From positions 1 to 64,000 of the forward strand of contig NZ_LQMT02000008.1 in the NCBI RefSeq assembly GCF_001620365.2: DNA of 64,000 nucleotides, written 5' to 3'. Positions 22,868 through 33,945 of the stretch are shown here, in pieces (within the stretch, counting starts at the first letter, position 1; each line of letters starts with the position of its first letter). The translations under genes were made by a program, and so were the position numbers. The notes beneath the pieces were generated by a model. That model was not told the DNA's origin and did not search any database. It saw nothing but the letters and a program-made list of their open reading frames with translations. The stretch comes from Amycolatopsis keratiniphila subsp. keratiniphila. Its GTDB lineage: Bacteria > Actinomycetota > Actinomycetes > Mycobacteriales > Pseudonocardiaceae.

Positions 22868-22897
22868 TTGACCGGAGACCGGGAAAGCGCTTACCGT
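22868..22897 (+). promoter_or_regulatory. Promoter with LacI-type operator for the polysaccharide operon
   Basis: TTGACC (22868-22873) and TACCGT (22892-22897) are 18 bp apart. The near-palindrome GGAAAGCGCTTACC (22882-22895) has the central CG and flanks of LacI-family operators and overlaps the -10. Repression by the operon's own LacI gene (28936) is the natural inference. Confidence 0.7.
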
Positions 22898-22942: not shown

Positions 22943-24271
22943 ATGCGGAAATCGCGGTGGATCGGCGTGGGACTCACTGTCTCAGCGCTGGTCCTTTCGG
23001 GCTGCTCGGCAGGCCCCGCCGGAACGAACGTCGCGCAGGACACCAAGGCGCCGTTGGAACTGTGGACCCGGACGACCCCCGGCGGCCCCGGCGAACAGGC
23101 CACCAAGCGGCTCGCGGAAGCCTTCGAGAAGGCCACGGGATTCAAGGTGCAGGTCACCGCGATCTTCGACGACTTCGAGACGAAGCTGGCCCAGCGCGCC
23201 GCCCAGCGCGACCTGCCGGACATCGTGATGAACGACGTCACCCAGGTCGGCACGCTGAAGAGCCAGGGTCTCGTGCGTGAGATCGAACAAGGCAAGATCA
23301 AGCACGCGTCGGAGCTCACCGAGCAGGCGCTGAAGTCCAACCAGACCCCGGACGGCAAGCTGTACGGCCTGCCCTACAGCGCGCAGGCTTCGGCGTTGCT
23401 GATCCGCAAGGACTGGCGCGAGAAGCTCGGCAAGGGCGTCCCGCAGAGCTGGGCCGAACTGGCGGACCTCGCCAAGGCCTTCACCACCGGCGACCCCGAC
23501 GGCAACGGGAAGAACGACACCGCGGGCCTGAACGCGACGCTGTCGACCAAGCGGGGTTACGCCTCCTGGTACTTCTCCAACTTCCTGTGGGCCGCGGGCG
23601 GCGACTTCATCACCGAAGCCGGTGACGGCAAGTACAAGCCCGCGATGAGCACGCCCGAATCCGTGGCCGCGGTGCAGTGGTTCCGCGACCTCGGCTGCAA
23701 GGACAACGTGATCCAGCCCGGTTCGGTCACCATGCCGACCCCCGCGACCAACGAGACCTTCGAAGCGGGCAAGGCCGGGATGTACGTCGTCGGCCCGTAC
23801 CTGCTGCCCCGGTTCGACAAGTCGCTCGGCAAGGACAAGTACGAGGTCGTCCCGATGCCGAAGGGCGCCAAGAACGCCGACGTCCTCGCCGAGGGCCTGT
23901 CGATCTTCATGATGGCCGGTTCGCCGAACCAGGCAGGCCAGGACGCCTTCGGTGACTTCGCGATCTCGGCCGACGGCCAGAAGATCGGCATGGAGGGCGA
24001 GTCGGCCTTCATCGTGCAGCTCCCGGTGAACAAGAACGTCGACATCACCCAGGTCCGCTCCGACCCGCGGTGGAAGACCTACGCCGAGATCTACGCGAAG
24101 TCCGGCCACTACGCGCCGTCCATCCCGAACTGGACGCCGGTCCGCCAGGACACCGCCGACACGATCAGCGCGCTCGTCGCCGACTGCAAGCTCGATCTCA
24201 AGGCGGAACTGTCCAAACTCGACACCAAGCTCACCGCGACCTTGCAGCAACAGGGGATCAGCGCCTCATGA
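22943..24271 (+). CDS. ABC transporter sugar-binding lipoprotein
   Basis: A 442-residue lipoprotein with lipobox LVLSGCSAG and a family-1 solute-binding fold (LELWTRTTPGGPGEQATKRL at the start, KLYGLPYSAQASALLIRKDW in the hinge region). It captures an oligosaccharide outside the membrane and delivers it to the two downstream permeases. AGGAG precedes the ATG. It is the first gene of an operon with alpha-L-fucosidase and a PL6 lyase, so its ligand may be a fucose- or uronate-containing oligosaccharide. An ATPase gene is missing, as in most actinobacterial sugar importers. Confidence 0.9.
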   Translation: MRKSRWIGVGLTVSALVLSGCSAGPAGTNVAQDTKAPLELWTRTTPGGPGEQATKRLAEAFEKATGFKVQVTAIFDDFETKLAQRAAQRDLPDIVMNDVTQVGTLKSQGLVREIEQGKIKHASELTEQALKSNQTPDGKLYGLPYSAQASALLIRKDWREKLGKGVPQSWAELADLAKAFTTGDPDGNGKNDTAGLNATLSTKRGYASWYFSNFLWAAGGDFITEAGDGKYKPAMSTPESVAAVQWFRDLGCKDNVIQPGSVTMPTPATNETFEAGKAGMYVVGPYLLPRFDKSLGKDKYEVVPMPKGAKNADVLAEGLSIFMMAGSPNQAGQDAFGDFAISADGQKIGMEGESAFIVQLPVNKNVDITQVRSDPRWKTYAEIYAKSGHYAPSIPNWTPVRQDTADTISALVADCKLDLKAELSKLDTKLTATLQQQGISAS

Positions 24272-25224
24272 CCGTAGATCACGCCAAGCCGGCGGCCGTC
24301 GGCGCGGACCGTCCCGCCGTGAAGCGGGCGCCCGCGCCGAAGGCCCGCAGGCGCAGCGACCGCGACGGGAAGTGGTGGACGCCGTGGCTGTTCCTGGCCC
24401 CCGCCCTCATCCTGTTCGTGTACTTCAAGTTCATCCCGATGATCACCGCGGTGACGATGTCCTTCCAGGACGTCCAGCCGTATCTGGGCAACCAGTGGGT
24501 CGGCGGGCAGAACTACAGCACCGTCCTCGGTGACGAGGCGTTCCACTCCGCGATCTGGCACACGGTCGTGATCGCGGTCGGGCAGACCGCGGGGTCGATG
24601 ATCCTCGGCCTCGCGCTCGCCCTGCTGATGGAGGGCCAGAGCAAGCGGCTGAAGTTCCTGCGGTCGGCGGCGTTCCTGCCGGTGGTCGTGCCGATCGCGG
24701 TGGTCGCCGAACTGTGGCGCATCATGTACCACCCGACCGAGGACGGGATGCTGAACTCCATCCTCGGCCTGGTCGGGCTGGGCCCGTCGGGATTCATCAA
24801 CGATCCCGACACGTCGATGGTCTCGGTGATCATCACCGGGATCTGGCGCGGCGCCCCGTACGACATGATGATCTTCCTGGCCGGTCTGGCCGGTATCGAC
24901 CGCGGCCTCTACGAAGCGGCCACTGTGGACGGTGCCTCCCGCTGGCGGAAGATCCTCCACGTGACGCTGCCCGGCCTGCGGTCGGTGTTCTCGATCCTGT
25001 TCGTCCTCGCGGCGATCCGCGGCCTGCGCGTGTTCACCGAGGTGTTCCTGCTGACCAACGGCGGGCCGAACGGCTCGACCGAGGTGGCGATGACCCTGAT
25101 CTACAAACTCGGCCTGGAACAGAACCGGCTGGGCGTCGGCGCGGCGGGCGCGGTCCTGCTGTTCCTCGCGACGCTCGTGCTCACCCTGTTCGTCCAGGTG
25201 CTCCGACGGAGGCGAGACGCATGA
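24268..25224 (+). CDS. ABC sugar transporter permease, MalF-type
   Basis: A 318-residue permease. A basic cytoplasmic N-terminus (KRAPAPKARRRSDRDGK) leads into six membrane helices, the first PWLFLAPALILFVYFKFIPM. The EAA loop is YEAATVDGASRWRKILHVTL. ATG 24268 overlaps the preceding stop (ATGA). It forms the importer channel with the next gene product. Confidence 0.9.
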   Translation: MTVDHAKPAAVGADRPAVKRAPAPKARRRSDRDGKWWTPWLFLAPALILFVYFKFIPMITAVTMSFQDVQPYLGNQWVGGQNYSTVLGDEAFHSAIWHTVVIAVGQTAGSMILGLALALLMEGQSKRLKFLRSAAFLPVVVPIAVVAELWRIMYHPTEDGMLNSILGLVGLGPSGFINDPDTSMVSVIITGIWRGAPYDMMIFLAGLAGIDRGLYEAATVDGASRWRKILHVTLPGLRSVFSILFVLAAIRGLRVFTEVFLLTNGGPNGSTEVAMTLIYKLGLEQNRLGVGAAGAVLLFLATLVLTLFVQVLRRRRDA

Positions 25225-26087
25225 CCGCGGCCAACGATTCCGCCCTCGGCCTCGACGCCGTCAAATCACCGGCCGGACGGGTCCTGAAGTTCGTCCTGTA
25301 CGCCCTGCTGCTCCTGGTGTTCGCCGGGCCGCTGCTGGCGCTGCTGGTCAGCGCGTTCAACGACGTCTCCGATCCGACGGCGCTGAGCGTCGTCCCGTCG
25401 AGCCCCACCCTGGACAACTTCGGCATCGCCTTCGACCTGGGCGTGGGGATGTATCTCCTCAACTCGTTCCTGGTGGTCGGCTTCGGCCTGCTGCTGCAGG
25501 TCGTCGTCTCGGTGCTGGCCGGCTACGCGCTGGCGCGCAAGAAGTTCCGGTTCATGACCTTCGTGCTGGTCGCGATCCTGGCGACGCTGATGCTGCCGGA
25601 GGAGATCCTCGCGATCCCCCTCTCGCTGATCCTGTCGGATCTGCCGGTGGTGCATCTGAACCTGATCGGCAGCCTCGCCGGGATGATCGTGCCGCTGGGC
25701 GCGTGGGCCTTCTCGATCCTGGTGATGACCGAGTTCATGAAGGACGTCCCCCGCGAACTCGAAGAGGCCGCGCGGATCGACGGCGCCGGCGATCTGCGGA
25801 TCTTCGCGCAGATCATCCTCCCGATGTGCAAGCCCGCGCTCGGCGTGATCGGCGTCTTCGGCTTCACGATGATCTGGGACCAGTACCTGCTGCCGTTGCT
25901 GGTGTCGACCGACGCCTCGACCTACACCCTGCCGCTGGCCCTGCGGACCTTGCGGATCGACACGAACGTCACGCCCGGCGTGATCATGGCCGCGTCGCTG
26001 CTGGCGCTGCTCCCGTCGGTCGCCGCGTTCCTGTTCTTCCAGCGTTCGTTCGTCCGTGGCCTCGCCTCGGGCGCGCTCAAGGGCTGA
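25221..26087 (+). CDS. ABC sugar transporter permease, MalG-type
   Basis: A 288-residue permease with the first helix FVLYALLLLVFAGPLLALLV and EAA loop EEAARIDGAGDLRIFAQIIL. It starts in an ATGA overlap with its partner and ends with RGLASGALKG, the usual MalG-type tail. The fucosidase gene follows after 21 nt, so uptake and cytoplasmic hydrolysis are made together. Confidence 0.9.
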   Translation: MTAANDSALGLDAVKSPAGRVLKFVLYALLLLVFAGPLLALLVSAFNDVSDPTALSVVPSSPTLDNFGIAFDLGVGMYLLNSFLVVGFGLLLQVVVSVLAGYALARKKFRFMTFVLVAILATLMLPEEILAIPLSLILSDLPVVHLNLIGSLAGMIVPLGAWAFSILVMTEFMKDVPRELEEAARIDGAGDLRIFAQIILPMCKPALGVIGVFGFTMIWDQYLLPLLVSTDASTYTLPLALRTLRIDTNVTPGVIMAASLLALLPSVAAFLFFQRSFVRGLASGALKG

Positions 26088-26108
26088 CCCACCATCACAA
26101 GGAGCGAT

Positions 26109-27410
26109 GTGAGTTCCACCGCCTGGTTCACCCACGACCGGTTCGGGATGTTCGTCCACTGGGGACTGTATTCCCTGGCCGCCCGGCACGAATGGGTGCA
26201 GAACCACGAGAAGCTGACCGACGAGCAGTACCGGGTCTACTTCGATCACTTCGAGCCGGACAAGTACGACCCGCGGTCCTGGGCGCGCGCCGCGAAGGCC
26301 GCGGGCATGACCTACGTCGTGCTGACCACCAAGCACCACGACGGTTTCTGCCTGTGGGACAGCGACCTCACCGACTTCAAGGTGACGAACACGCCGTACG
26401 GCAAGGATCTGCTCGGCCCGTTCGTCGACGCCTGCCGCGAGGAAGGCCTGAAGGTCGGCTTCTACCACTCGCTGATCGACTGGCACCACCCGGCTTTCCC
26501 CGTCGACGGCACCCATCCCCGCCGTGACGACGCGGAGTACATCGCGGCGCACCAGTACGCCGACATCGCCGAGTACCAGCTCTATCTCCACGGTCAGGTG
26601 CGCGAACTGCTCACCCGCTTCGGCACGATCGACTACCTGTTCTTCGACTTCTCGTACAAGGGCCGCAAGGAATGGTGGGGCGGCAAGGGACCGGCCGACT
26701 GGGACTCCCCCGGCCTGCTCGCGCTGGTCCGCGAACTCCAGCCCGGCATCCTGGTCAACGACCGCACCGGGATCCCCGGCGACTTCATCACCCCGGAGCA
26801 GTACCAGCCGTCCGGCCCGATGACCCGCGACGGTGTCCCCGTGGTGTGGGAGGCGTGCCAGACCCTCAACGGCAGCTGGGGTTACGACCGCGACAACCTC
26901 GACTACAAGAGCCCCGAACTGCTCATCCGGATGCTGGTCGACGGCGTGTCCAAGGACGGCAACCTGCTGCTCAACGTCGGGCCGAACGGCCGGGGCGAGA
27001 TCGACCCCCGTGCGCACGAAGTCCTCGCCGAGATCGGCCGCTGGATGGACCGCCACGAACGCTCCATCCGCGGCTGCGGTCCCAGCGAGTTCACCGCGCC
27101 CGCCGACGGCCGCTACACCCAGCGCGGGGACCGGCTGTACCTGCACCTGTTCAGCTGGCCGATGAACCACGTCCACCTGCCCGGGCTCGCCGGGCGGGTG
27201 CGTTACGCCCAGTTGCTCGACGACGCCTCGGAAATCCGGCAGGTGCACACGGATCCCGGGCAGACCGCGCAGAACACCCAGATGGGCGGGCAGCCGGAAG
27301 GCACGCTCACCCTGAAGCTCCCCATCCGGAAACCGGACACCCCGGTCCCGGTGATCGAACTGTTCCTCAGCACCGAAAGCCCCGCCGCCGAAACCCGCCC
27401 CACCGATTGA
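26109..27410 (+). CDS. Alpha-L-fucosidase (GH29)
   Basis: A 433-residue glycosidase of family 29: WFTHDRFGMFVHWGLYSLAA at the N-terminus, TTKHHDGFCLWDS for substrate binding, and IDYLFFDFSYKG containing the likely nucleophile Asp180. The C-terminal part forms a small beta-sandwich. It has no signal peptide, so it removes terminal alpha-L-fucose (or a similar 6-deoxy or galacto-configured sugar) from imported oligosaccharides in the cytoplasm. The GTG at 26109 has AAGGAG upstream, while the ATG two bases earlier is out of frame and followed by a stop. It sits between the importer genes and the PL6 lyase. GH29 includes some broad-specificity members, so substrate needs testing. Confidence 0.9.
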   Translation: MSSTAWFTHDRFGMFVHWGLYSLAARHEWVQNHEKLTDEQYRVYFDHFEPDKYDPRSWARAAKAAGMTYVVLTTKHHDGFCLWDSDLTDFKVTNTPYGKDLLGPFVDACREEGLKVGFYHSLIDWHHPAFPVDGTHPRRDDAEYIAAHQYADIAEYQLYLHGQVRELLTRFGTIDYLFFDFSYKGRKEWWGGKGPADWDSPGLLALVRELQPGILVNDRTGIPGDFITPEQYQPSGPMTRDGVPVVWEACQTLNGSWGYDRDNLDYKSPELLIRMLVDGVSKDGNLLLNVGPNGRGEIDPRAHEVLAEIGRWMDRHERSIRGCGPSEFTAPADGRYTQRGDRLYLHLFSWPMNHVHLPGLAGRVRYAQLLDDASEIRQVHTDPGQTAQNTQMGGQPEGTLTLKLPIRKPDTPVPVIELFLSTESPAAETRPTD

Positions 27411-27423
27411 GCACGGAGGCATC

Positions 27424-28866
27424 ATGGATCGCAGAAGGTTCCTCAGCGGCGCCACCCTCGGCGCCGCGCTGATCACCGTCCCCTGGGTCACCGCGGGCAC
27501 GGCGTCGGCCAAACCGCAGGGGCTGTGCGCACTGAACGTCAGTTCGCTGACCGAGTTGCAGACCGCGATCAACCGGGCGGCTCCCGGTGCCGTCATCACG
27601 GTGGAGAACGGGACGTACGCCGTGCCGTCGGGCAAGCCGATCACCGTCAAGGGCAGGCGCGGCACGAAGGACCAGCCGATCACGATCATCGCCCAGTCCC
27701 GCGGCGGGGTGACGTTCACCGGTGAGCAGAGCTTCGTCTTCGACGACTCCACCGGTGTCACGCTCAGCGGATTCGAGTTCCGGCAGAGCACCACGCTGGA
27801 GATCCCCGCGAACTGTTCGCGAATCCGCCTCACCCGCAACGATTTCCAGCTGGCCGACCTCCCGGACCTGGACTGGGTGATGGTCCGCGCCGACTACAGC
27901 AAGGTCGACCGCAACCATTTCCACCACAAGACGACGATCGGCGTCATGCTCTGCATCGAGGGCGCGGACGACGACAAGATGGCTACCGGCGTCCACGTCG
28001 TGCGGAACTACTTCTCCGACCACAGCTTCGCCGGCGACAACGGCGGCGAGCCGATCCGGCTCGGGGTCAGCCCGCGCGCCCTGAGCACCGCCTCCGCCAC
28101 GGTGGAGTACAACCTGTTCGAACGCGCGAACGGCGACCCGGAGGCGATCTCGGTCAAGTCGTCGGGCAACTTCATCCGCCACAACACCATCCGGAACAGC
28201 CGGGGCGGCATCGTGCTGCGCCACGGGAACAAGTCCGTCGTCGAAGCCAACTTCATCCTCGACGGCAAGGACGGCATCCGGATCTACGGCAACGACCACA
28301 AGATCGTCAACAACTACATCGCCGGACTGTCCAGCAGGGCGCTGGTCGTCGGCAGCGGCACCGTCCGGGACCACTTCCCGGGAGAATCGAAGGAATCCCG
28401 CCGTAAGAACGACGCGGCGGACCGGGTGCTCATCGCGCACAACACGCTGCTGAACAACGGCGGCACGCTCTCCGGCGAGACCAACCGGACGATCGAACCG
28501 CGCGACTGCACGATCTCGGACAACATCTTCGTCGGCGACAACGAAGACCTGGTCTCGATGAGCACCACGGGCAACTTCACCTGGTCCGGCAACATCCTGT
28601 GGGGTTCGGGCGGGAACGGCAACATCCCGGCCGGCACCTTCCGCCGGGTCGACCCGAAGCTCGTGCAGGGCACCGACGGGATCTCGCGGCTGGCCGCGGG
28701 CAGCCCCGCGATCGACTCGGCGACCCTCTCGACCGCACCGGTCACGCTGGACATCGACGGTCAGGCCCGCGGCAGCCTGCGTGACGTCGGCGCCGACGAG
28801 TACTCGACGGCCGCCATCGCCAACCGGCCGCTCACCACCGCGGACGTCGGCCCCGGCGCTCCGTAG
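27424..28866 (+). CDS. Tat-exported polysaccharide lyase family 6 (chondroitinase B/alginate lyase-like)
   Basis: A 480-residue right-handed beta-helix lyase. It starts MDRRRFLSGATLG, a twin-arginine signal, with cleavage near GTASA. The PL6 active site is recognisable: DPEAISVKSSGN (Glu240, Lys245 as base) and VLRHGN (Arg266, His267), the same arrangement as Lys250/Arg271 of chondroitinase B; the position of that enzyme's first Ca-binding Glu is Asp here. PL6 enzymes cleave alginate or dermatan-type uronate chains by beta-elimination, giving unsaturated products. GGAGG precedes the ATG at close spacing. The gene follows the fucosidase by 13 nt, and a terminator follows it. The real substrate is unknown. 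Confidence 0.88.
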   Translation: MDRRRFLSGATLGAALITVPWVTAGTASAKPQGLCALNVSSLTELQTAINRAAPGAVITVENGTYAVPSGKPITVKGRRGTKDQPITIIAQSRGGVTFTGEQSFVFDDSTGVTLSGFEFRQSTTLEIPANCSRIRLTRNDFQLADLPDLDWVMVRADYSKVDRNHFHHKTTIGVMLCIEGADDDKMATGVHVVRNYFSDHSFAGDNGGEPIRLGVSPRALSTASATVEYNLFERANGDPEAISVKSSGNFIRHNTIRNSRGGIVLRHGNKSVVEANFILDGKDGIRIYGNDHKIVNNYIAGLSSRALVVGSGTVRDHFPGESKESRRKNDAADRVLIAHNTLLNNGGTLSGETNRTIEPRDCTISDNIFVGDNEDLVSMSTTGNFTWSGNILWGSGGNGNIPAGTFRRVDPKLVQGTDGISRLAAGSPAIDSATLSTAPVTLDIDGQARGSLRDVGADEYSTAAIANRPLTTADVGPGAP

Positions 28867-28874
28867 TGAAAGCC

Positions 28875-28912
28875 GGGCTCACGCCGGCGGCAGCCCCCGC
28901 CGGCGTGAGCCC
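28875..28912 (+). terminator. Hairpin between the lyase and LacI genes
   Basis: A perfect 16-bp stem (28875-28890 with 28897-28912, left arm GGGCTCACGCCGGCGG) and 6-nt loop lie 8 nt after the lyase stop. It should partly separate the catabolic genes from the regulator genes downstream. Confidence 0.85.
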
Positions 28913-28935
28913 ACCGCACCACCTTGGGAGGAACC

Positions 28936-29973
28936 ATGGCGCAGCGTGCCGCGGGTTCGGCCACCCTGGCCGACGTCGCCCGTGAGGCCGGAGTGTCGCT
29001 CGCGACGGCGTCGAGGGCGCTCAACGGCGGGACGAGACAGGTCAGCGGCACCCTGCGCGAATCGGTGCTGCGGGCCGCGGAACGCTTGCAGTACACGGCG
29101 AACGTGCCCGCGCAGGCGATGGCCCGCGGCCGCGGCAATGTCGTCGGGCTGCTGGTGCACGACATCGTCGACCCGTACTTCTCCTCGATCGCGTCCGGCG
29201 TGATGCGCGTGGCCGCCCGGCACGGGCTGACGGTCACCATCGCGAGCACGGAAAACCATCCGGAGAAGGAACTCGAGTACGTCACGACGTTGCGCGGGCA
29301 ACGGGCTCGGGCGGTCATCCTCGCCGGGTCGCGGAACGAAGACAGTGCCCTGCAACGGAATCTGACCAAGGAACTCAAGGCGTTCGAGGCCGCCGACGGC
29401 CAGGTCGTGGTGATCGGGCAGCGGAAACTCCCCTTCGACACCGTCATGCTGGAGAACCGCGCGGGAGCGGCGGATCTGGCCGAACAACTCGCCCGGCTCG
29501 GGCACCGTGACTTCCTCGTCCTCGCCGGGCCGTCCGGCCTGCTGACCTCGCGGGACCGGGTGCTGGGTTTCCGTGACGGCCTCGCCCGCCACGGCGTGCC
29601 CTTGCCCGAAAACCACGTGCTGCGCGCGGAATTCACTCGCGACGGCGGCTACGCGGCGATGGTGCGGGCGATCGAGAGCGGCTTCCGCGGCTGCGTGTTC
29701 GCGGTCAACGACGTGATGGCCGTCGGCGCGATGGCCGCCTGTCGCGACCGCGGTCTGCTGGTCCCCACGCAGATCGCGATCGCGGGGTTCGACGACATTA
29801 TTACCTTGCGCGACATAAGGCCTTCGCTGTCGACTGTGCGGGTGCCGATCGAGCGCATGGGCGAACAGGCCCTCGACTTCATCCTCGACCACCGCGCGGA
29901 CGGTCCCCGTGTCAAGCCGATCACCGGCGAGGTCGTGCTGCGGGAAAGCACTCAACCGTTGGAGGGAAAATGA
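28936..29973 (+). CDS. LacI-family transcriptional regulator
   Basis: A 345-residue repressor. The HTH and hinge helix are TLADVAREAGVSLATASRAL and RAAERLQYTANVPAQAMARG; the effector domain has the periplasmic-binding fold (VVGLLVHDIVDPYFSSIASG, later GFDDIITLRDIRPSLSTVRV). ATG 28936 has GGGAGGA upstream. Its genomic position in the polysaccharide operon and the LacI-type operator at 22882-22895 make it the likely local repressor, released by an oligosaccharide. The isomerase gene overlaps its end by ATGA. A small effect on the GH2 gene at 43425, which also has LacI-like sites, is possible. Confidence 0.92.
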   Translation: MAQRAAGSATLADVAREAGVSLATASRALNGGTRQVSGTLRESVLRAAERLQYTANVPAQAMARGRGNVVGLLVHDIVDPYFSSIASGVMRVAARHGLTVTIASTENHPEKELEYVTTLRGQRARAVILAGSRNEDSALQRNLTKELKAFEAADGQVVVIGQRKLPFDTVMLENRAGAADLAEQLARLGHRDFLVLAGPSGLLTSRDRVLGFRDGLARHGVPLPENHVLRAEFTRDGGYAAMVRAIESGFRGCVFAVNDVMAVGAMAACRDRGLLVPTQIAIAGFDDIITLRDIRPSLSTVRVPIERMGEQALDFILDHRADGPRVKPITGEVVLRESTQPLEGK

Positions 29974-30731
29974 TCCGCCCGGGACTGTGTTCGGTGACCT
30001 TGCGGCGGCTGGACGCCGACGACGTCGCCCGTCGCGCCGAGGAGGCGGGGCTGCAGGTGATCGAATGGGGTGCCGACGTCCATGTCCGCCCCGGTGACGA
30101 CTGGGCGGCCGAGCGCGCGTTCGAGGCCATGGCACGGCACGGGCTGACCTGCGACTCCTACGGTTCCTATTTCCGCGCGACCCCGATGGAGACCGGGAAG
30201 TTCGGCGAGATCGCCGCCACCGCGGTCCGGCTCGGCGCCTCGCGGATCCGGGTGTGGGCGGGGAAAGCGGGCTCCGAGGACGTCGACTCCTACGAACGCG
30301 AGCAGATCGTCGCCGGGCTCCGCGAGGCCGCCGACGTCGCGAACGAGCACGGACTCGAAGTCGCGCTGGAGTTCCACGGCGGGACGCTGACCGATACCGC
30401 CGAATCGACCGTGCGGTTGCTCGAAGAGGTCGGCCGCGACAATCTCGGCACCTACTGGCAGCCGCCGCAGGATCTGCCGGACGAGCAGGCGCTGACAGGG
30501 CTGGAACTGGTACTCGACCAGGTCCGCGCGGTGCACGTGTTCTCGTGGTGGCCCAGCAACGAGCGGCATCCGCTGACCTTCCGGACGGAGCTCTGGACGC
30601 GGGCGTTCGGTCTGCTCGCCAAGGCCGGACGGCCGCTCGACGCGTTGCTGGAGTTCGTCCCGGACAACGACCCGGACCTGATCCCCGGTGAGGCCGACTC
30701 GCTGCGGAAGCTGATCGAGGCGGGCGCGTGA
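29970..30731 (+). CDS. Sugar phosphate isomerase/epimerase (xylose isomerase-like TIM barrel)
   Basis: A 253-residue AP-endonuclease-2/xylose-isomerase-like TIM barrel. Visible metal or substrate residues include Glu in VIEWGADVHV, Glu in VALEFHGGTLTDT, His in RAVHVFSWWP and Glu in LLEFVPDNDP. Members of this superfamily isomerise or epimerise sugars, keto acids or inosose. It starts in an ATGA overlap with the LacI gene and overlaps the SGNH gene, so the three are one translational unit. In this setting it could convert a released monosaccharide or keto-sugar acid into a central-metabolism intermediate. Exact reaction unknown. Confidence 0.82.
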   Translation: MIRPGLCSVTLRRLDADDVARRAEEAGLQVIEWGADVHVRPGDDWAAERAFEAMARHGLTCDSYGSYFRATPMETGKFGEIAATAVRLGASRIRVWAGKAGSEDVDSYEREQIVAGLREAADVANEHGLEVALEFHGGTLTDTAESTVRLLEEVGRDNLGTYWQPPQDLPDEQALTGLELVLDQVRAVHVFSWWPSNERHPLTFRTELWTRAFGLLAKAGRPLDALLEFVPDNDPDLIPGEADSLRKLIEAGA

Positions 30732-31360
30732 GGTTCACCGAAGCCGACCGCCTGCTGTTCGCCGGCGACTCCATCACCGATTCCAGCCGCGACCGCACCG
30801 ATCCCGCGTCGCTCGGCAAGGGCTACGTGCGGCGGATCGCGGATCTCCTCGGCGACGGCCCGGAGGTGCTCAACCGGGGGATCAACGGAAATCGGATCTA
30901 CGACCTCGAAGCCCGCTGGGCCACCGACGTCCTCGCGGCGCGTCCCACGGTGCTGACGGTGAAGATCGGCATCAACGACACCTGGCGGACGTTCGACCGC
31001 GGCCTGCCGAGCCCGATCGACAAGTTCCGTGCCGCCTACTCCCGGCTGCTGGCGGGCGCACGGCGGGATCTCCCGGCCGAGTTGTACGTGATCACGCCGT
31101 TCCTGCTGCCGGTGGAGCCCGAACAGCAGGACTGGGTCGCCGATCTTGCGCCCCGTGTCGAGGCCGCGATCGAGGTGGCGACCGAGTTCGGCGCGCGGCT
31201 GATCCGCGCGGATCTGTTCATGCCGCGGGCGGCCGCCGAGCACGGGGCGGCGACGCTGGCCCCGGACGGCGTCCACCCCAGCCCGCTGGGACATCGCCTG
31301 CTCGCCGAAGCCTGGCTCGCGGCGGCCGGGTCGCCGGTCCAGGAGGCCCCGCTCTCGTAG
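30728..31360 (+). CDS. SGNH/GDSL hydrolase (carbohydrate esterase-like)
   Basis: A 210-residue SGNH esterase. The four blocks are present: LLFAGDSITDSS (Ser), NRGINGN (Gly), KIGINDTWR (Asn) and LAPDGVHPSPLGHRL (Asp/His). The pattern resembles rhamnogalacturonan acetylesterases and other carbohydrate deacetylases. No signal peptide is present, so it would deacetylate imported oligosaccharides. The GTG start overlaps the isomerase stop (GTGA). It is the last gene of the operon; the kinase gene's -10 lies 5 nt beyond its stop. Confidence 0.88.
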   Translation: MRFTEADRLLFAGDSITDSSRDRTDPASLGKGYVRRIADLLGDGPEVLNRGINGNRIYDLEARWATDVLAARPTVLTVKIGINDTWRTFDRGLPSPIDKFRAAYSRLLAGARRDLPAELYVITPFLLPVEPEQQDWVADLAPRVEAAIEVATEFGARLIRADLFMPRAAAEHGAATLAPDGVHPSPLGHRLLAEAWLAAAGSPVQEAPLS

Positions 31361-31364
31361 CGGA

Positions 31365-31370
31365 TACAGT
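31365..31370 (+). promoter_or_regulatory. -10 element of the kinase gene (leaderless)
   Basis: TACAGT ends 7 nt before the GTG at 31378. There is no Shine-Dalgarno. The element is only 5 nt past the SGNH stop codon, so the kinase can be transcribed alone. Confidence 0.55.
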
Positions 31371-31377
31371 TGCGTCC

Positions 31378-32679
31378 GTGAACCGGGATGCCGTCATTGC
31401 CGGACGTTACCGGCTGGAGCGCGAGGTCGGCCGGGGCTCGATGGGCGTGGTGTGGCGGGCGCGGGACGAGCGGCTCGACCGCACGGTGGCGCTCAAGCAG
31501 CTGCTGCCGGACACCTCGCCGGACGGCGCGCCGTTCCGGTCGATCGTGCGCGCGATGCGGGAGGCCAGGGTCGCCGCGCGGCTCAAGCATCCGCACGCCG
31601 TCACCGTGTACGACGTCGTGGAGCAGGACGGAACGCCGTTCCTGGTCATGGAATACCTGCCGTCGCGGCCGCTGACGGACCTCCTAGCGGACGACGGCCT
31701 GCTCCCCGCAGGCCGGGTCGCGGAACTCGGCGCGCGGATCGCCTCGGCGCTGGCCGCCGCGCACGAGGACGGGATCCTGCACCGCGACGTCACGCCCAAC
31801 AACATCCTGATCACCGGCGACGGGAACGCGAAGATCGCCGATTTCGGCCTGTCCCACGCCACCGGGGAAGGGACCATGACCGGCGGCGGGCTCGTCGTCG
31901 GCACTCCCGCCTACCTCTCCCCCGAGGTCGCCGACGGCGAGGAACCCGGCTACCCGTCGGACGTGTTCTCGCTCGGCTCCACGCTCTACACCGTGCTGGA
32001 GGGTGCGCCGCCGTTCGGCACCGACGCCAACCAGATCGCGCTCCTCAAACGGGTCGCCCGCGGCGAGATCGTCACGCCCCGCACCACCGGCCCGCTCACG
32101 GACGTCCTGCTGCGCATGCTCCGGCGCGATCCCGCGGAACGGCCGGACATGGCCGAGGCCGGACGGATGCTCGCCGCCGTCGCCGACGGCCGTCCGGCGA
32201 TCCTGGCCGGCACCAAACGGCTTCCCGCGCCCGCCCGCCGATCGCGCTTGCCGATCGCCATCGCGGGCGGCGTGGTGGTGGCGGGAGGCGTCCTGGCGGG
32301 GATCCTGCTGTTCGACGGCGACGCACCCGACGCCGTCGCCCCGGTGGCGGTGCCTTCGCCGTCGGCCGCGAAGCCGGTGTGCGAAGCGCGTTACGAGATC
32401 GCCAACCGCTGGCCCGGCGGCTCGGAGATCCGCGTGTCCGTCCGCAACGCCCAGGACACCCGGCTCACCGGCTGGGAGGTCAGCTGGACGCTGCCGCCCG
32501 GCACCCGTATCGCCAATCTGTGGAACGGTTCCCTCGCGCAGGACGGCGATCGCGTGCGAGTGTCCGAAGTGGACTGGAACGCGGTACTACCCGCCGGCGG
32601 GACGACCACGTTCGGCTTCATCGCGACCACCGAGGACGACGGCGGGGACACGCCGGTCGCGGTGTGTCGGAGTTCCTGA
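31378..32679 (+). CDS. Transmembrane Ser/Thr protein kinase with extracellular CBM2-like domain
   Basis: A 433-residue receptor-type kinase. Residues 8-270 are a Hanks-type kinase: Gly loop GRGSMGVVW, Lys40 in VALKQLL, HRDVTPNN with catalytic Asp137, DFGLSHA, and the activation segment GTPAYLSPEV. One helix (about 291-312, IAIAGGVVVAGGVLAGILLF) crosses the membrane. The outside part (335-430) starts and ends with Cys (Cys335, Cys430) and has the family-2 carbohydrate-binding pattern: conserved Trp residues in NRWPGG and LTGWEVSW, IANLWNGSL, and EVDWNAVLPAGGTTTFGF. CBM2 modules bind cellulose, chitin or xylan. This suggests polymer sensing. It follows the polysaccharide operon by 17 nt. The CBM assignment is by pattern and fairly strong. 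Confidence 0.88.
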   Translation: MNRDAVIAGRYRLEREVGRGSMGVVWRARDERLDRTVALKQLLPDTSPDGAPFRSIVRAMREARVAARLKHPHAVTVYDVVEQDGTPFLVMEYLPSRPLTDLLADDGLLPAGRVAELGARIASALAAAHEDGILHRDVTPNNILITGDGNAKIADFGLSHATGEGTMTGGGLVVGTPAYLSPEVADGEEPGYPSDVFSLGSTLYTVLEGAPPFGTDANQIALLKRVARGEIVTPRTTGPLTDVLLRMLRRDPAERPDMAEAGRMLAAVADGRPAILAGTKRLPAPARRSRLPIAIAGGVVVAGGVLAGILLFDGDAPDAVAPVAVPSPSAAKPVCEARYEIANRWPGGSEIRVSVRNAQDTRLTGWEVSWTLPPGTRIANLWNGSLAQDGDRVRVSEVDWNAVLPAGGTTTFGFIATTEDDGGDTPVAVCRSS

Positions 32680-32699
32680 GCTGGTTCCCTGCGGAGGCC

Positions 32700-32745
32700 G
32701 TCGTGAGTGGCGATTCGGGTTCTAACCCGAATCGCCACTCACGAC
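32700..32745. terminator. Perfect 22-bp palindrome after the kinase gene
   Basis: Arms 32700-32721 and 32724-32745 are exact complements around CT, starting GTCGTGAGTGGCGATTCGG, 20 nt after the kinase stop codon. It shares CGTGAGTGGCGA with the outer palindrome at 7473-7777. It may end kinase transcription. Confidence 0.8.
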
Positions 32746-32770
32746 CACCTGGACCGAACGGCGGCTTCGC

Positions 32771-32915
32771 GTGATCGAACGGACAACACGTGTGATCAGA
32801 CGGACGACACGCGTGACCGGAGGGACGACACGACCGCGACGAAGCCGCAGCCGCGAGTCGTCCGTCCAAACACACGTGTCGTCCATCCAGACACGCGAGT
32901 CGTCCATCTGGTCAC
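32771..32915. repeat. Mirror-image minisatellite: three 21-bp units, 19-bp centre, three inverted units
   Basis: Units 32771-32791, 32792-32812 and 32813-32833 are direct repeats (GTGAyC at the start, GGACGACACG near the end). After 32834-32852 three units of the same type run in the opposite direction: 32853-32873, 32874-32894, 32895-32915. All six are exactly 21 bp. A transcript from either strand could fold into a 63-bp imperfect stem. It lies between convergent kinase and LacI genes. Confidence 0.9.
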
Positions 32916-32931
32916 GCAAGATCGCCAGTGG

Positions 32932-33945
32932 CTAACGTGCGGTCGATTCCCGCGCGTTCAGGCGCACGGGAACCTCGATCCGGTTCGGCCCACCGTCGAC
33001 ACCCTCGACGAGGTCCATCAACGCCGTGGCGGCACGGCCGCCCACCTCACGGGGATGCACGAACATCCCGGTCACCTGCGGCGAAACGAGCCGGAGCGAA
33101 CCACTGTCGACGGCACTGCAGATCCCGAGCCCGTCGGGTACCGCGAGCCGTCGGCGGCGGGCCTCGTGGAGGACGCCGAGGGCAAGGTTCTCCGACGTCG
33201 TGAAGACGGCATCCGGACGTACCGGGCGGTCGAGCAGCCTGCCCAGCGCATCCGCCGTGCCTTCGGTGGTCGGCGGCTCGTCGATCTCGACCACCACCGG
33301 CTCCAGTCCCCGCTCCTCCAGCCAGCCGGTGTAGCCCGCGACCAGGTCCGCCGCGTACGACCGGCGGGTGTCGGTGGTGATCATCGCCGGCCGCTCGTAA
33401 CCGTTGTCCGCCAAGTGATCCAGCATCAGCCGGGCGGCCGCGACCAGGTCGTTGTCGACGACGACCGGCACCGGGCACGGCGCCGCCATCGGCCGTCCGA
33501 CGGTGACCAGAGGCCGGTCACGGCACCAGCCGGTCGCGAAGAAAGGCTCGTCGCCACGGGGATCCACCAGGATCGCGCCGTCGACGGCGAAGGCGTTCAG
33601 CCGGTCGAGGTCGGCGTCCGTCGGGGCGAGAAGCAAGGCGTACGACCGTTTCGACGCGGCCTCGGCCGCCCCGTTGAGCACTTCGAGGAAGTAGTCCGAG
33701 TTGGGCACGAGCGCGCAGGCGCTGCTCGCGTCGACCGAGTTCGCGAGCTGGATCGCCAGGGTGCGGCTGCGCCGGGTGACCAGCTGCTGCGCGTGCACAC
33801 TCGCCTGATAGCCGAGGTCGGCCGCCGCCCGCGCGACCCGCTGCCGGGTCTGCTCGGAGATCCGCCCCTGTCCGCTGAGCACGTGGGAGACGGTGGTGAT
33901 CGAGACCCCCGCGGCGGCGGCGACGTCACGGATGGTCGGCGACAC
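32932..33945 (-). CDS. LacI-family transcriptional regulator
   Basis: A 337-residue repressor. The HTH is IRDVAAAAGVSITTVSHVLS, followed by the hinge helix RVARAAADLGYQASVHAQQL and a periplasmic-binding-like sensor domain. The GTG at 33945 directly follows the stop codon of the upstream flavin reductase gene with no gap, and GGAGG lies 5 nt before it, so both are one operon. The effector and operators are unknown. The GH2 glycosidase promoter at 43263 has LacI-like sites and is a possible distant target. Confidence 0.9.
   Translation of the reverse strand: MSPTIRDVAAAAGVSITTVSHVLSGQGRISEQTRQRVARAAADLGYQASVHAQQLVTRRSRTLAIQLANSVDASSACALVPNSDYFLEVLNGAAEAASKRSYALLLAPTDADLDRLNAFAVDGAILVDPRGDEPFFATGWCRDRPLVTVGRPMAAPCPVPVVVDNDLVAAARLMLDHLADNGYERPAMITTDTRRSYAADLVAGYTGWLEERGLEPVVVEIDEPPTTEGTADALGRLLDRPVRPDAVFTTSENLALGVLHEARRRRLAVPDGLGICSAVDSGSLRLVSPQVTGMFVHPREVGGRAATALMDLVEGVDGGPNRIEVPVRLNARESTAR

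Follow-up and report, generated by a model that had tools for sequence, protein, structure and literature searches.

The locus analyzed here, in a stretch of 64,000 nucleotides from Amycolatopsis keratiniphila subsp. keratiniphila (hereafter the window), raises the question of whether a bacterial receptor kinase can read a solid polysaccharide directly and, if so, whether it reports to the polysaccharide operon beside it. In the usual view, it is soluble fragments that reveal insoluble cellulose or chitin to bacteria. If a conserved receptor kinase carries an intact binding face for insoluble glycan, this would link the solid polymer directly to protein phosphorylation, in a family, the Pseudonocardiaceae, that is rich in antibiotic producers. 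The reading that we favor, at a probability of roughly 0.55, is a single-pass receptor Ser/Thr kinase with its kinase domain inside the cell and a CBM2a-type domain outside, which would contact an insoluble beta-1,4-glycan (cellulose or chitin). The features on which the analysis is based are collected in Table 1.

Table 1. Positions of the kinase-CBM2 gene, its domains and its surroundings (window positions unless a locus is named)
Feature	Position	Strand	Remarks
Receptor Ser/Thr kinase-CBM2 fusion gene	31378..32679	+	433 aa ORF
Hanks kinase domain, predicted cytoplasmic	31390..32202	+	residues 5-275
Predicted single transmembrane segment	32251..32316	+	about residues 292-313; single hydropathy peak
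Pro/Ala/Ser low-complexity linker	32317..32379	+	fast evolving, dN/dS 0.41
CBM2 domain, predicted extracellular	32380..32667	+	residues 335-430, C335-C430
W345	32410..32412	+	W17 of C. fimi CBM2a (1exg); invariant, 31/31 kinase-CBM2s
W382	32521..32523	+	W54 of CBM2a; invariant, 31/31
W400	32575..32577	+	W72 of CBM2a; in 31 homologues W 23, Y 5, H 2, gap 1
Hairpin, 27-bp arms	32695..32750	+	3' of kinase stop; contains GTGAGTGGCGATTCGGGTT
Upstream co-oriented operon	22943..31360	+	context; functional link to kinase not supported
LacI-family regulator, convergent, downstream of kinase	32932..33945	-	context
CBM-less array kinase	L027 4054-5004		
CBM-less array kinase	L029 3855-4790		
CBM-less array kinase	L030 10435-11526		
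CBM-less array kinase	L031 4693-6066		
CBM-less array kinase	L045 5025-6164		

Architecture of the gene and identity of its external domain

The initial annotation had described a complete Hanks kinase, one membrane helix and an external domain that resembles a CBM2 carbohydrate-binding module and is bounded by Cys335 and Cys430, which are the sole cysteines of the 433-aa protein. The open reading frame has a codon-position GC content of 0.74/0.54/0.91, typical for coding sequence here. The kinase proved to be as described, with a Pfam Pkinase match (PF00069) at residues 11-261 (158.7 bits, E 2.4e-46) and with K40, E62, H135-R136-D137, N142 and D155-F156-G157 invariant in 26 homologues. The catalytic-loop Lys is replaced by Thr (HRDVTPNN) in the window kinase, as in most of its Amycolatopsis homologues, and is retained in the fusion homologues of most other genera; we count this replacement against our preferred explanation. 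The Lys of HRDxKPxN is usual in Hanks-type Ser/Thr kinases and is not essential for membership, and we assign the window kinase to this group. No PASTA match was found by Pfam in the fusion protein, and its score with the NCBIfam PASTA-kinase model NF033483 (236.6) is below the cut-off of 450.

One transmembrane segment is predicted. There is a single hydropathy peak, at residues 293-311 and preceded by Arg-rich sequence, but AlphaFold2 called no transmembrane helix (pLDDT below 50 across residues 279-330), so that the assignment rests on hydropathy.

The external domain was matched by the Pfam CBM_2 profile (PF00553) at residues 335-419 with 83.5 bits (E 1.5e-23), far above the curated cut-off of 24 bits. 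In a sequence search of the PDB, its best matches were CBM2 domains: 6f7e, 3ndy, 1exg/6qfs and the chitin-binding 2rtt. The AlphaFold2 model, built from 31 sequences, is of high confidence (pLDDT 92.5, pTM 0.84) and has the beta-sandwich fold of CBM2 (Z 14.7 to 3ndy_E and 14.3 to 6qfs_B, and 36% identity to 6f7e); cellulose-binding CBM2 domains were ranked first by both Foldseek and VIA-align, and the closest solved structures are of the CBM2a type. Across 31 diverse kinase-CBM2 proteins, no substitution occurs at C335, C430, W345, W382 or G348. The match to CBM2 is far beyond chance in profile, fold and conservation.

Two types of CBM2 differ in the third residue after the first Trp, which is Gly in CBM2a (cellulose type) and Arg in CBM2b (xylan type); the PDB title of 1e5b, an R262G mutant, is in line with this rule. 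Alignment to 1exg puts W345, W382 and W400 on the three binding Trp of the C. fimi CBM2a, W17, W54 and W72. The features of CBM2b (Arg at the R262 position and a two-Trp site) were not found in the external domain, where G348 is invariant and W400 is present. The three Trp and Gly348 indicate the CBM2a type, and cellulose binding is predicted.

At the 5' end, GATACAGTTG is conserved at window positions 31363-31378, directly before the GTG start, where its -10-box-like placement makes it a candidate for leaderless transcription; in several relatives the apparent start of the gene lies further downstream. The very strong hairpin behind the stop codon, of which there is no second copy within the window, is likely to mark the transcript end of the kinase gene. 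The intergenic region at 32752-32917, which separates the kinase gene from the convergent LacI gene, holds three copies of a 21-bp direct repeat and overlapping, long imperfect inverted repeats.

Distribution and origin of the kinase-CBM2 family

Homologous matches running through both the kinase and the CBM2 were identified in 34 of the 60 Amycolatopsis genomes sampled, with 84-100% identity in 14 genomes and 49-59% in the other 20. Among the best 30 CBM2 loci from 150 Pseudonocardiaceae genomes, kinase fusions make up the majority and the remainder are LPMO-like secreted proteins. Altogether we collected 63 distinct sequences of kinase-CBM2 fusions, in which at least ten Pseudonocardiaceae genera are represented, among them Amycolatopsis and Kutzneria (L114); the fusion is conserved in related genomes. 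One of the fusion genes among the best 30 loci (G468, L188 7239-8575) is split by an apparent frameshift, reflecting either sequencing error or decay. Outside the family, no fusion was present among the 30 best class-level CBM2 loci, the best locus per genome being that of a secreted enzyme. Likewise, no CBM2 was found on the kinases examined, up to 42 per genome, in 40 CBM2-rich actinobacteria outside the family; the longest kinase matches in these genomes, when inspected, carried other external domains. A search of plasmids gave no full-length match.

In a kinase-domain tree of 102 sequences, in which non-fused kinases from other genera are thinly sampled, all fusions fall into one clade (support 0.97), and the nearest kinases outside it carry different external domains. 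This topology is consistent with one ancestral kinase-CBM2 fusion followed by duplication, for which the case is strong but not closed. Judged from the sequences, the kinase-CBM2s are a single family in the Pseudonocardiaceae, mainly vertically inherited.

In some Amycolatopsis genomes, two kinase-CBM2 genes form an array with a LacI gene and the gene of a further kinase that has no CBM. The CBM-less kinases are devoid of the HRD Asp and the DFG Asp, and most of them also of the beta-3 Lys. They nest inside the fusion clade and have lost the CBM2, and each is likely to be a pseudokinase partner of the array receptors.

This loss, together with the variability of the third Trp across the family, would suit a CBM2 that is merely a spacer or a relic no longer binding sugar, on a kinase that responds to something else. 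We find such an explanation improbable, since the two other ligand-face Trp are invariant across ten genera and selection on the CBM2 matches that on the kinase. For the Amycolatopsis orientalis group, to which the window belongs by its named relatives, median dN/dS values were calculated from 14 members, the window included: 0.177 (kinase), 0.183 (CBM2) and 0.413 (linker). The first two values are nearly equal, so that purifying selection in this group acts as strongly on the CBM2 as on the kinase.

Genomic neighborhood of the kinase gene

The initial annotation had suggested that the kinase reports to the adjacent operon, which encodes an SBP, two permeases, GH29-type and PL6/chondroitinase-B-type enzymes, a LacI regulator, a TIM barrel protein and a GDSL protein. 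A dedicated sensor of this GH29/PL6 system would agree with the position of the kinase gene, co-oriented and 17 bp after the GDSL gene, with the terminator-like hairpin that follows it, and with the synteny of kinase and operon, which is conserved in the A. orientalis group. Three close relatives (G042, G021, G015), however, retain the operon and flanking genes at 83-98% identity and have lost the kinase; decayed remnants persist at its place in two of them, as 52 bp of CBM2 sequence (87%) in G042 and as kinase fragments in G015. The operon thus does not depend on the kinase. It has a LacI regulator of its own and a predicted operator, a LacI-type palindrome at 22882 upstream of its first gene, and neither cellulose nor chitin is suggested as substrate by its enzymes. 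Paralogues are found in unrelated surroundings, and in other clades the fusion sits beside a gene that we named HtpG-like from reading its sequence, beside STAS or LacI genes, or beside unrelated genes, and no consistent association of the kinase-CBM2 homologues with polysaccharide genes was found. The suggested link to the operon is left unsupported, and we regard a dedicated sensor as very unlikely.

Probable ligand and relation to known systems

Because the three ligand-face Trp are retained in the CBM2, we may fairly infer that insoluble polymer is sensed directly by the receptor kinase considered here. Its topology, ligand, ligand-dependent activation and targets are all part of a predicted scheme. 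Through W345, W382 and W400, the CBM2 would lie flat on the surface of an insoluble beta-1,4-glycan. With many receptors attached to a single polymer surface, these would cluster or dimerize, and the kinase would trans-autophosphorylate and phosphorylate cytoplasmic targets. Against this scheme, W400 is replaced in 7 of 31 homologues and missing in one, and the homologues are not consistently associated with polysaccharide genes. The other strong CBM2 proteins of the same genome include exported GH18-type chitinases, which makes chitin as credible a ligand as cellulose.

A role in cellulose degradation only does not fit everywhere, since in six genomes from two other genera (G468, G506, G536, G557, G497, G529) the kinase carries the only CBM2 and GH6 cellulase was not found; LPMO_10 was also not found in G468, G497 and G529. 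These genomes speak for an alternative reading, in which the CBM2 would recognize a surface polymer of the cell itself, either the glycan chains of peptidoglycan or a beta-glucan of its own making, and would monitor the growing cell wall or serve as an anchor to it, in the way that PASTA kinases use muropeptides. A link between Streptomyces PknB and the beta-glucan synthase CslA (PMC13432765) points the same way. However, the residues of the CBM2 match the cellulose-binding type, and the GlxA-type oxidase domain, used as the sole marker of the Streptomyces apical glucan system, was present in one of 16 genomes tested, missing from the other 15, and not found in the genome of the window. We consider recognition of the cell's own polymer rather unlikely. 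Extending the preferred reading, contact with solid beta-1,4-glycan, to the whole family is more tentative and falls somewhat short of even odds: Pseudonocardiaceae receptor kinases would read such surfaces via CBM2 with no need of soluble breakdown products, some Amycolatopsis having tandem receptors and a CBM-less pseudokinase partner.

The nearest functional precedent is found in clostridia, where RsgI proteins sense biomass with external CBMs through anti-sigma factors (PMC4711584). RsgI1/2/4 of Clostridium thermocellum and, apparently, the kinase-CBM2 are sensors that cross the membrane once and contact insoluble polysaccharide with a C-terminal CBM outside the cell. The RsgI proteins combine an anti-sigma-I domain with a CBM3 and act via a sigma factor, whereas here a Ser/Thr kinase is combined with a CBM2, and the predicted cytoplasmic part contains no anti-sigma-I domain. 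With the PknB/PASTA receptor kinases of Actinobacteria, the fusion shares the kinase superfamily, the predicted topology and an external glycan-related sensor, but it has no PASTA repeats. Its CBM2 resembles the CBM2a domains that secreted cellulases, LPMOs and chitinases carry (1exg, 6qfs, 6f7e, 3ndy, 2rtt) in fold, cysteines and three-Trp face, and differs from them in being attached to a membrane kinase. A literature search, with most subscription papers outside its scope, returned no description of bacterial kinases with CBM2; entries for the fusion may already exist in domain databases.

One report (PMC3377646) describes, for S. roseum and T. bispora, Ser/Thr kinases that are regulated by CelR and adjoin LacI genes. 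Those kinases, whose LacI regulators are linked to cellulose, share a LacI neighbor with some Amycolatopsis fusions, but the passages on them mention no CBM2, and the parallel is one of position only. Regulation of the window locus by CelR was considered and rejected, as the window contained no CelR operator better than chance. In another Amycolatopsis, a perfect CelR palindrome, TGGGAGCGCTCCCA, is located near a CBM2-bearing LPMO gene (L178 8209-8222).
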